The notes under the pieces are model-generated. The model worked only from the letters and a program-made list of their open reading frames with translations. It was not told where the DNA came from and did no database searches. Made by a program: the position numbers and the translations under genes. Shown piece by piece: positions 3,925 to 24,098 of a stretch of DNA of 24,098 bases; positions within the stretch are counted from its first letter, which is position 1, and each line of letters opens with the position of its first letter. Origin of the DNA: a virus; the IMG/VR virus record IMGVR_UViG_3300017951_000133, positions 1-24,098 of that record; one strand, written 5' to 3'.

Positions 3925-5043
3925 TTAGATTTTAAAAGTCATTGCTCCTCTACCAGACATGATTTGTTGTAGTTGATCTGGCAAGGAGGCTTCTCGTGGT
4001 TGTCCCGTGTTTTGGGTTGGGGTTGGTGAGCTTACATTCGCAGCTTTCTCGACAAGACCTCTCTGACCATCGCTCTGCCCCTGCTTATACGCAGAAGAAA
4101 CGATAGCATCAATGTTGTCGATAACAGCTCTGTGCGAGTTGTAAGTGTCGTAATCCCAGCTACCATCCTCACGGATATAAGGATTAAAGTAGTCATCGGG
4201 TCGTGAGTTCACGTCCATGAGCTTGGCCTTGTACTGATCGTTGATTCCGAAAGTGAACGTGTTTCCGTTCCCCAAGTCGAACTCCAATCCAGTCAGTGCG
4301 TCGACCTCTGCATTCAATCCGCGAATCCAGTCTTCGGTGACAAAAGACTCAGCCTCAACATTGTTGTTGACTTCTGGCTCAAGGTACTGACTACGAATGT
4401 CGTCAATGCTTCTACGAGCCTTCTCGCCATCAATCTTAATTTGAAGCTGAGCAAGTTTGACCTCTTCCTCTGAATAGAGGTCGGGGTCGAGTTTGTATTT
4501 GCTCTCAATAAGCATGTTCAACTCCTCTGGAGCAAGGTTGGGGTAATCAGAAGCCATCTGAACACGGACAGCCGTAGCGTCATCCATGTTGTTAGGGTCA
4601 AGCGACTGATACGCAAACCAATCTTGCGGTGATCTGCCAGTGTTTTCCACAAAGCTTGCAATCACCTGGAGTCTCTCGTCTATTTGAGAGCTGGATTGTT
4701 GGTTGAAGTCGTCAATGCTGTTGATCTCGCGCCCGAGCCTTTCGCTCAGATATGTGTAGACAGCTGCCTCGATTTCTTCATCCGAGTAGTTTTCACTATC
4801 ATCATTTGCCTGCGGCTCATCCATCGGCGCTGCCTCTGGATCTACGTATGGCGTTTCCTGAACCTGATCTTCCACTTGCTCCTGTGCAGGAGCCTCTTCT
4901 TGAACTGGTTCTGGTGTAGGCTCCTCCACCTGCTCTTGAACAGGCTCTTGAGATTCTACTTGTGGCTCTTGAGAAAGGTGTTGTTCGAGTTTCTCAGTAG
5001 AGTCGAAGAACTGGAGTCCTTCTGATTGTTGATTGTCTTCCAT
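3925..5043 (-). CDS. Capsid scaffolding protein
   Basis: 372 residues from ATG 5043, ending 13 bases before the major capsid gene. The first ~85 residues are extremely rich in Glu, Gln, Pro and Val (repeats such as QEPVQEQVEEPTPEP) and must be disordered. After that come helical, charged segments (SDEEIEAAVYTYLSERLG; EEEVKLAQLQIKIDGEKARRS) suited to a coiled coil, and a short basic or polar C-terminus with SLPDQLQQIMSGRGAM. Acidic, helical, low-complexity proteins placed just before the capsid gene are typically internal scaffolds that leave or are cleaved during head maturation. No protease motif is seen. The call is based on composition and position. Confidence 0.75.
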   Translation of the reverse strand: MEDNQQSEGLQFFDSTEKLEQHLSQEPQVESQEPVQEQVEEPTPEPVQEEAPAQEQVEDQVQETPYVDPEAAPMDEPQANDDSENYSDEEIEAAVYTYLSERLGREINSIDDFNQQSSSQIDERLQVIASFVENTGRSPQDWFAYQSLDPNNMDDATAVRVQMASDYPNLAPEELNMLIESKYKLDPDLYSEEEVKLAQLQIKIDGEKARRSIDDIRSQYLEPEVNNNVEAESFVTEDWIRGLNAEVDALTGLEFDLGNGNTFTFGINDQYKAKLMDVNSRPDDYFNPYIREDGSWDYDTYNSHRAVIDNIDAIVSSAYKQGQSDGQRGLVEKAANVSSPTPTQNTGQPREASLPDQLQQIMSGRGAMTFKI

Positions 5044-5060: not shown

Positions 5061-5405
5061 TTATGCGTAAACTAAGAACTTATCTCCAGTGCCTCCAGTT
5101 ATGCTGGAGAATCTGCCAAAGATAGTCTGTCCTACCCCGAGTGTAATAGATACGTCGGTGGTAGGGAGGGCCTCATAGTAGCCTGCGGCGTGGGTGGCCC
5201 CAAGAGTAGTTCCGTCAGCAGCAAGGTGCGTTCCGTTGCCACCGTTGGCCGCCAAGTACTCAAATATGCCGCCTCCCGTTACAGTAGCTGTACCGCCATC
5301 AATAGACGTAATAGAGAAAAAGTGTCTACCCTCTGGAGCGTCCAGCTGAGTGGTGGTATCTACGTAGTAGAGGTTCTTGGGTGTATTTTTTGATGGGTGT
5401 GCCAT
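5061..5405 (-). CDS. Small beta-rich virion protein, short paralogue
   Basis: 114 residues. The start ATG shares a base with the upstream TAA (TAATG). It aligns by eye with both ends of the next gene upstream: GRHFFSITS..GG..GGGIFEYLA here against GQHFKYFDS..GG..GGGIVSYYA there, and AGYYEAL..GQTIFGRF here against AGYYEAK..GVPVYGRF there. It is therefore a short copy lacking the central ~100 residues of that protein. Glycine-, threonine- and aromatic-rich composition without cysteine suggests a beta-sandwich or head decoration protein. The function is inferred from position directly before scaffold and capsid genes. Confidence 0.65.
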   Translation of the reverse strand: MAHPSKNTPKNLYYVDTTTQLDAPEGRHFFSITSIDGGTATVTGGGIFEYLAANGGNGTHLAADGTTLGATHAAGYYEALPTTDVSITLGVGQTIFGRFSSITGGTGDKFLVYA

Positions 5406-19139: not shown

Positions 19140-19154
19140 GTTAATTTAATTTAG

Positions 19155-19228
19155 TACACCTGCAGGGACTCGAACCCCGAACCTGCGCATTAGAAGTGCG
19201 CTGCTCTATCCTGTTGAGCTACAGGTGC
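19155..19228 (-). tRNA. tRNA-Arg (anticodon TCT)
   Basis: 74 bases, complete cloverleaf on the minus strand. The acceptor GCACCTG pairs with CAGGTGT (one G-U), the D-arm is GCTC/GAGC, and the anticodon stem GCGCA/TGCGC encloses loop CTTCTAA with anticodon TCT. The T-arm has the standard TTCGAGT loop. The discriminator base is A and no CCA is encoded. It reads AGA codons, which are common in these phage genes. Confidence 0.95.
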
Positions 19229-19635: not shown

Positions 19636-19652
19636 GGTTTAAATTTTATTTG

Positions 19653-19726
19653 TTGGGGCGGTGGGACTTGAACCCACGACTTCCTGTGTATAAGACAGAC
19701 GCTCTAACCAACTGAACTACGCCCCA
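19653..19726 (-). tRNA. tRNA-Ile (anticodon TAT)
   Basis: 74 bases on the minus strand. The acceptor TGGGGCG pairs fully with CGCCCCA, the D-arm is GTTC/GAGC, and the anticodon stem TCTGT/ACAGG holds loop CTTATAC with T33 and anticodon TAT. The T-arm GTGGG/CCCAC has loop TTCAAGT. The discriminator is A and no CCA is encoded. UAU reads AUA directly. Most bacteria read AUA with a lysidine-modified CAU tRNA instead, so this isoacceptor is uncommon. Confidence 0.93.
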
Positions 19727-22871: not shown

Positions 22872-23000
22872 TCACTTATTTTTAAAGTATTCTACCTGCT
22901 TAAGCCGCCTCATAGCAGCCAGCCTGCTTCCATAAGGCCCCCCTAAAGCCTTCCCACTTTCACTCTTGACGTAATACCCGTCTTTCTTCTTTACAATCAT
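22872..23000 (-). CDS. Tiny conserved phage protein with RRLKQVEYFK motif (42 residues)
   Basis: 42 residues from ATG 23000, which overlaps the preceding TGA (ATGA), to TGA at 22874-22872. It reads MIVKKKDGYYVKSESGKALG, then GPYGSRLAAMRRLKQVEYFK. The pattern G-x-Y-V-x-S-E-S-G-K-x-L-G-G-P-Y...A..RLxQVEYFK is one I recognise as a short module in many phage and viral proteins, with a beta hairpin followed by one helix. Despite its size the motif and coupled start make it a credible gene. Function unknown. Confidence 0.8.
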   Translation of the reverse strand: MIVKKKDGYYVKSESGKALGGPYGSRLAAMRRLKQVEYFKNK

Positions 23001-23602
23001 TGCATAAGGCTCCTGAAGTGGTCTCTTCTGTCCTTCTCACCCTTAAAGTGTCCAACCTGATACTGATCAGCCCAGTTCTCTTTGCTAGAAAGCACCTTTT
23101 CAACCGAAGTAGAAGGATCTTTAGCAAAGTGAGCCGTAAACAACATATCCTGTATCTCTGGATCCAAAGAACTCACATCCCTCAGCTCATCGTCACTCAA
23201 CTCAGGATACTCCATATCCCTTTTCTCTGCAATAGACTTCAACCTGTTGTATGCTGTCTGTGCTGTAGGGTAGTCAAACTGGTAAGCACCCCTCCCAACA
23301 CCTACAGGTATGTCAACACCATCAACAGTAACTATCTGACGCTGCCTATACGGGTCTGGTGAGTCAGGTCCAGCCTCAACCCTTCTTACTTGATCCCTGA
23401 ACTCTGCAAAATCAATCTCAGAACCCTGATACGGGGCCTGAACAATGCTGTCCAAAGCAGCAAGATTCAAGTAATTGTCACCCTCATCATGAAACTCGCT
23501 AAAACCAACTGGAACCAAGTTGCCAGCCTCGTTGTAACGATAACCCTTAGGGGGATCCTTCTGCACTTTCATGCCCTCTTGGGCTCTGTATACTGTTTTC
23601 AT
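22997..23602 (-). CDS. Lysozyme/transglycosylase-like phage protein
   Basis: 201 residues from ATG 23602; the open frame goes on to a TTG at 23614, but ATG gives the MKT start seen in its neighbours. The region VRRVE76AGPDSPDPY, followed by GVGRGAYQFDYPTAQTAYNR, has the layout of lysozyme-like muramidases: a catalytic Glu at the end of a helix, then a G-A-Y-Q-F turn. The following segments, DPEIQDMLFTAHFAKDP, WADQYQVGHFKG and DHFRSLMQ, are helical with conserved-looking aromatics. No signal peptide. It may be a virion-associated cell-wall enzyme or a second lysis protein with the M15 endolysin downstream. The fold call is inference. Confidence 0.65.
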   Translation of the reverse strand: MKTVYRAQEGMKVQKDPPKGYRYNEAGNLVPVGFSEFHDEGDNYLNLAALDSIVQAPYQGSEIDFAEFRDQVRRVEAGPDSPDPYRQRQIVTVDGVDIPVGVGRGAYQFDYPTAQTAYNRLKSIAEKRDMEYPELSDDELRDVSSLDPEIQDMLFTAHFAKDPSTSVEKVLSSKENWADQYQVGHFKGEKDRRDHFRSLMQ

Positions 23603-23647
23603 GTCTAGATACAACTATTCTCGCGCCATAAAGAAAAAGGACTCTTC

Positions 23648-23657: not shown

Positions 23658-23916
23658 CAAAAACCAACTTTGTATGCTTATTCTTACTTCTGAATCGCTT
23701 CGATGCCGTAAAGGTATAAAGGAATTTTTGAAAAATCAAGATTAAACCAACGCTTTAAGCAAAGGACTCTAATATGCTGTAAAAGAAAGGGTTAGATGGT
23801 TGTTTTTGATGTGTTGTTGATACATTGTTAACCCAGATTAGAGCAGATTTTCGCTCCTGAAGGCAATGATCCGAAAAAATGCGGGAGAAATATGTAGGGT
23901 GGGGATTATATATATA

Positions 23917-24092
23917 TGCGTGCGACGCAGCGAGAGACCCGAAGTGGAGTCCGCTGACCGACAAATCTATGATTTGTAACGATGGCCAAAACATTTCAGC
24001 TTTTTCCTAAAAAGCTGATTGCCAAGCTGTTGGGGCTACTCTGTTAGAGTAGAGGTAGAGGAGAACCTTTCGCACACGATGCTCCGAAGGAG
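23917..24092. ncRNA. Cluster of triloop hairpins, possible structured RNA or ssDNA element
   Basis: Consecutive perfect hairpins with three-base loops: TGCGT-GCG-ACGCA (23917-23929), ACAAATC-TAT-GATTTGT (23961-23977), CAGCTTTTT-CCT-AAAAAGCTG (23997-24017), CTACTCT-GTT-AGAGTAG (24036-24052) and CTCC-GAA-GGAG (24082-24092). A further stem CAGCG/CGCTG (23928-23956) with inner GAC/GTC and CC/GG pairs lies between the first two. They may belong to a structured RNA, or be recognised as extruded or single-stranded DNA. Strand cannot be decided. None has a U-tract suitable for termination. Confidence 0.5.
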
Positions 24093-24098
24093 GCGGAC

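Follow-up and report, generated by a model that had tools for sequence, protein, structure and literature searches.

Why is the edge of a phage contig packed with small perfect hairpins of unrelated sequence? The window analyzed here, by which we mean the whole of a 24-kb IMG/VR virus contig (IMGVR_UViG_3300017951_000133; 24,098 nt), ends in such a run (positions 23917–24092), which a first-pass annotation had singled out from the letters alone. We address the question through the window itself, longer relatives, and known systems that resemble the run.

Hairpins at the window end and the motif before them

The large terminase of the window phage is nearest to those of the Flavobacterium elemo and Cellulophaga podoviruses, at less than 60% identity, and the phage also encodes an endolysin, a GroES-like protein, and two tRNAs. 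The tRNA genes, Arg-TCT and Ile-TAT, adjoin the terminase gene (19154–19228 and 19652–19726), and tRNA pairs are present in four relatives too (L002–L005). The hairpin block occupies the end of the contig, past the final late-module gene, and is oriented oppositely to that module. The divergent module opens with a gene (22997–23614, minus strand) for a 205-aa protein with no assigned function, which served as the query for relatives. On this divergent late side there is also a sequence (TTG...TATACCTTTAC; 23709–23740, minus strand), with relatives in L003 and L006, that we take from its consensus to be of the Bacteroidota -33/-7 promoter type.

Just before the hairpins lies a conserved motif, AGAAATATGTAG-GGTGGGGATTATATAT (23886–23913, plus strand), which is the putative start of an early transcription unit and would act as its promoter. 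The neighboring-protein search yielded three loci that reach this region, all with GGTGGGGATTATAT (position 23898 in the window) just ahead of hairpins. A scan with GGTGGGGATTATATRT returned 68 loci, among which a bimodal context score splits the true sites from chance matches, resulting in a set of 41 distinct and related IMG/VR phage contigs, the window included, that share the block. The motif is single-copy in 18 of the 18 contigs tested, and a search with the first early protein described below found 55 loci, many of which have one to three mismatches in the motif. The phages carrying the hairpins are uncultured Bacteroidota podoviruses.

Within 23917–24092 we found five perfect stems closed by three bases, with lengths of 5, 7, 10, 7, and 4 bp; the triloops and the lower bound of the 4–9 bp range first given for them hold, and the maximum is 10 bp. 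On the plus strand, stem search placed TGCGT-gcg-ACGCA (5 bp) at 23917–23929, ACAAATC-tat-GATTTGT (7 bp) at 23961–23977, TCAGCTTTTT-cct-AAAAAGCTGA (10 bp) at 23996–24018, CTACTCT-gtt-AGAGTAG (7 bp) at 24036–24052, and CTCC-gaa-GGAG (4 bp) at 24082–24092; alignment additionally identified the 5' arm of the 10-bp stem as the conserved leader block CTTTTnAGCTTTTT. An imperfect longer stem, AGCG...CGCT (approximately 23929–23955, plus strand), was recognized from leader alignment and folding as the site of the first conserved leader hairpin. In all five, a pyrimidine precedes the loop and a purine follows it, and the last alone has a C(GAA)G loop. Compared with 2,000 dinucleotide shuffles of the 176 bases, five triloop stems of at least 4 bp stand against 0.63 expected (1/2,000 shuffles reaches five) and three of at least 7 bp against 0.01 expected (0/2,000), and hence the block is real and its hairpin frequency is not reproduced by shuffled sequence of the same composition. 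Elsewhere the window is unremarkable: its other 23.8 kb has just eight stems of at least 7 bp (loops of 3–5 bases). Folding z-scores of the block are -1.8 on the plus and -3.9 on the minus strand. No tRNA or Rfam family was detected in the block, with Rfam applied at gathering and permissive thresholds, and no T-run, the hallmark of intrinsic terminators, follows the stems in the window or in the sequences of its relatives, in agreement with the earlier view that neither a gene nor a terminator explains the hairpins.

A 36-leader alignment and the array profile in relatives identify 23914–24098 (plus strand, approximately 185 bases) as the start of an untranslated leader and hairpin array whose remainder is cut off by the contig end; the window thus covers only the first 200 or so bases of the array. 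Four contigs end at one aligned base (...GAC/AATC, the slash marking the end): the window at 24098, L014, L033, and L021. These shared ends do not establish a fixed genome terminus, as the two ends of the 61-kb L033 contig overlap across the leader and other contigs continue past the point. This self-overlap of approximately 165 nt, with a few mismatches (L079, G004:1-170 against the L033 end), is an indication of a circular map combined with strain variants of the leader.

A hairpin array spanning leader and first early gene

Longer relatives contain a conserved stretch of 1–2 kb, comprising the leader and the first early gene, that consists almost wholly of small perfect hairpins. Counting perfect stems of at least 6 bp with loops of 3–5 bases, we found 151 hairpins against 10.2 expected at +16 to +450 from the motif, 208 against 11.7 at +450 to +1000, and 115 against 9.9 at +1 to +2 kb, whereas upstream of the motif there are 45 against 28 expected. 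Per 500 nt from the motif, the numbers are 9, 14, 4, 1, 1, 2, and background thereafter in the 60-kb contig, and 8, 15, 6, 8, 1, 0 in a second long contig. Hairpin density in whole or long contigs is at background again beyond approximately 2 kb, and annotated relatives that lack the motif have no hairpin peak. The array is larger than first noted, with background density elsewhere in the 60-kb genome. Density is graded across the group, and some members that carry the motif, the leader, and the gene have few or zero hairpins.

The untranslated leader is approximately 450–570 nt long and contains about 8–10 hairpins. It is followed by the gene for the first early protein, which is Lys/Ala-rich, approximately 120–240 aa in length, and begins with MNNFxFSDCRKAVNQATFRPT. 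In array-rich members this gene contains 11–21 hairpins against 1–2 expected from shuffles that fix both protein and codon usage, and its reading frame is intact despite the hairpins. Its codons are thus arranged so as to form hairpins. Perfect inverted repeats within functional protein-coding genes are also known as the coding palindromes of Nematomorpha mitochondria (PMC6649704); those are long, up to 284 bp, and occur in animal mitochondria, whereas the palindromes of the array are many, short (17–20 bp), tiled, and present in a noncoding leader too. The first early protein was found neither in the genome contigs searched for a host nor in isolate phages and matches no PHROG apart from two weak single-member hits, and a DNA search found no homologue of the window end in phage isolates. 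As further observations, the start codons of early genes are embedded in mini-hairpins, on the 3' arm (TTCATC-tac-GATGAA with its variants; +559 from the motif in L018, +563 in L007, +542 in L011, and +556 in L071), some stop codons lie in hairpin loops or arms, and long AT-rich stems such as tatatctctctctctgaacgtagtgaagagagagatata occur between early genes (L003:3340-3390 and 4290-4330; L018 at approximately +1420 to +1465 from the motif).

A probably transcribed leader and stems replaced in place

Pair analysis on 12 leaders gave a consensus structure of 47 pairs with 93.4% of cells paired, a figure that favors itself in being derived from the same alignment, although slid controls drop to 25–45% paired. 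Both sides have changed in 18 of the 47 pairs, and 0 of 500 column shuffles reach any of five measures. Long-range helix 2 (columns 186–202 with 330–346) and helix 4 include sense-strand G-U pairs. Comparison of the leaders thus shows that the leader folds as sense-strand RNA, with long-range helices that covary, in support of the structured phage RNA that had been among the first candidates. GOLLD, ROOL, and similar RNAs are large structured phage RNAs, and the array resembles them in including a long noncoding phage RNA with covarying helices; it differs in having no Rfam match and in being attached to a coding hairpin chain.

Early genes and type I hammerheads lie downstream of the motif in the same sense. 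We found 19 distinct hammerheads, each with three stems and all in sense orientation, and none in shuffled controls; stem I contains G-U in 18 of the 19 copies. One that was tested against Hammerhead_1 and RAGATH-1-hammerhead scored under the Rfam gathering threshold. They have covarying stems and sit between early genes (L104:4137-4191 and 5207-5260; also L089, L093–L098, L101–L103, L106–L108, L112, L114, and L035). Type I hammerheads are known from phage transcripts, where they flank prophage genes and where transcript processing has been suggested (PMC3088659); here they belong to the same transcription unit, downstream and between genes, as a neighboring element distinct from the window hairpins. 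Given the leader RNA structure and the sense hammerheads, transcription very probably enters the region from the side of the motif.

Hairpin sites are kept in place while their sequences are swapped, as in CAACCTC-gaa-GAGGTTG, TAACCTC..GAGGTTA, and TGACCTC..GAGGTCA, and the stems differ from one another, which bears out the earlier description of a repeat of structure and not of sequence. Close relatives show paired changes (CTCTAC..GTAGAG to CTCCAC..GTGGAG) and differences of whole loops; together with the 18 leader pairs, these are the compensatory changes among homologues that had been called for. A tally of broken pairs over all sequence pairs was set aside, as distant sequences misalign. 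The stem AGCCTTC-nnn-GAAGGCT is found with the loops GAA, TTC, TGC, AAA, TCC, and CAA, and lineages have gained some hairpins and lost others. Where all three bases of a triloop differ, 15 of 33 distinct changes are exact reverse complements (chance 1 in 27), and among GNA to TNC switches in either direction alone 11 of 17 are exact (chance 1 in 4, P = 0.0006), counts that are partly nonindependent in that related loci share events. Arm homogenization and spacer inversion mark template switching between inverted repeats (PMC8604942), and both arm homogenization and exact loop inversion are seen in the array. Because they carry these marks, the palindromes have in all likelihood engaged one another as DNA while being replicated. 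Template switching explains the perfection of the stems, not their concentration here.

Explanations for the array

The explanation we prefer, tentatively and with a probability of roughly 0.4, is that the hairpins form a chain in a structured early transcript and that DNA template switching holds this chain perfect, with a function that we infer. The window hairpins would be the promoter-proximal edge of the 1–2 kb array, with which the early transcript would begin. The chain would act in RNA, where any sequence may serve provided that it folds, and template switching between palindrome arms would keep stems perfect and flip loops. As loops are free and stems replaceable, folding itself would seem to matter, and we speculate that the folded chain compacts the earliest RNA made in infection and protects it from Rho, nucleases, or RNA-guided defence, which attack RNA that is unpaired. 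The restriction of the array to the downstream side of the motif, its continuation through the codons of the first gene, the leader covariation, the sense hammerheads, the replacement of stems with free loops, and the loop inversions argue for this reading. Against it stand some relatives with the motif in which leader and gene persist but hairpins are few or absent, and the pairing and loop character of the mini-hairpins.

Among stems of at least 7 bp in the leader and coding part, 131 distinct ones are perfect, compared with 14 with G.T and 31 with A.C; the mini-hairpins are almost purely Watson-Crick, without the G-U pairs seen in helices 2 and 4 and in hammerhead stem I. A pyrimidine-purine pair closes 100 of the 105 triloops in the leader, compared with 61 of the 135 hairpins in the background (P = 3e-18), and 47% of leader triloops are GNA or its complement compared with 12–14% expected or in background (P = 5e-8). 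There is no strand preference (19 GNA versus 30 TNC, P = 0.15). Of the 105 leader triloops, 29 are C(GNA)G or its complement, compared with 6 of 135 in background; the form is enriched, not universal. UUCG loops are favored in RNA, and none was found among 55 leader tetraloops. The loop preferences are strand-symmetric and DNA-like.

The best account of these preferences is the main rival, in which the array works as DNA: the mini-palindromes would extrude as hairpins or cruciforms on supercoiled or single-stranded phage DNA and serve an early polymerase, a primase, or a structure-binding protein. We regard this as rather doubtful, and no less doubtful in its fuller form, in which the opening 1–2 kb would be tiled with sequence-free DNA mini-hairpins that are selected for hairpin stability and form in vivo for a structure-reading step of early transcription or replication. 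Watson-Crick purity and the symmetric excess of GNA loops and pyrimidine-purine closures fit such a role, as d(GNA) loops closed by C-G are the stable DNA triloop family (PMC5815330) and extrusion of N4 promoters requires a C:G closing pair and the loop G and A (PMC4496689). Tens of hairpins rather than three, loop and flanking sequences that are not conserved, and confinement to the transcribed side of the motif argue against it, as does the search for a virion RNA polymerase. None was recognized in the nearest relatives or among those early and virion ORFs of the 60-kb array-bearing contig that were tested, and giant proteins of relatives had no RNA polymerase match (3859 aa against PHROGs, Pfam, and PDB; 3694 aa against Pfam), searches that remote homologues could escape.

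The structured-transcript reading already invokes template switching, and a further alternative makes it the whole explanation: template switching or fold-back synthesis in a region exposed during replication would generate and perfect palindromes, and the array would be functionless. Arm homogenization and exact loop inversions (PMC8604942, PMC8794818) are expected from such a process, which alone predicts Watson-Crick purity and DNA-stable loops, and the gain and loss of hairpins between lineages also fits. We nevertheless consider it unlikely, given the confinement to 1–2 kb of 60 kb, the positions that are kept while sequences are replaced, and the synonymous arrangement in a conserved gene; no replication origin was located at the array, where GC skew is ambiguous. 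Arm homogenization and exact spacer inversion are likewise seen in template-switch repeats of yeast genes, rRNA and microRNA hairpins, and plastid minute inversions; those are isolated, and in rRNA such inversions of loops are very rare (PMC8794818), whereas the array is dense and local and its inversions are common.

The hairpins might also literally be promoters for an N4-type virion RNA polymerase, which we judge very unlikely. N4 promoter hairpins have a perfect stem of 5–7 bp and a 3-base loop, and array hairpins have this size. The likeness to the hairpins required in N4 (PMC4496689) extends, for many array hairpins and not for all, to C-G closure and loops with G and A at their ends (C(GNA)G), and early genes adjoin downstream. 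The N4 promoters, however, are three, with conserved bases, upstream of transcripts, whereas array hairpins number in the tens, are sequence-free, and run through a transcribed leader and along and within coding sequence; the conserved stem and the -17 to +1 bases of N4 have no counterpart, as array stems and spacers differ freely, and in the nearest annotated relative the giant protein of the virion has no virion RNA polymerase match. The single-strand DNA recognition region of N4 type first proposed thus survives as a resemblance in loops and closing pairs, and not in number, placement, or a recognized polymerase. The IS200/IS605, attC, and packaging readings offered alongside it find no support: the stems share no sequence, neither a Y1 transposase nor an integron integrase was called among the annotated genes examined (from which the early side of the window phage is missing), and no fixed genome end was shown. 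Chance, terminators, or assembly artefact have a negligible probability: 15 of the 41 motif contigs break off in the 500 nt that follow the motif (none does so in the 500 nt before it), which points to difficult assembly, but the shuffles, the conservation of positions across dozens of metagenomes, the intact frame, and the lack of T-runs rule them out.

We found no description of such an array in the open-access literature, which does not prove that none exists, and no system known to us has tens of perfect mini-hairpins, unrelated in sequence, tiled across an untranslated leader as well as the codons after it. Whichever function applies, these phages present a natural case of nucleic-acid shape visibly overriding codon choice. 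They also document, at unusual density, how template switching maintains perfect hairpins, which has mostly been reported from single events in other systems. Should the hairpins work as DNA, the N4 principle would extend to a different phage group and to a different scale.
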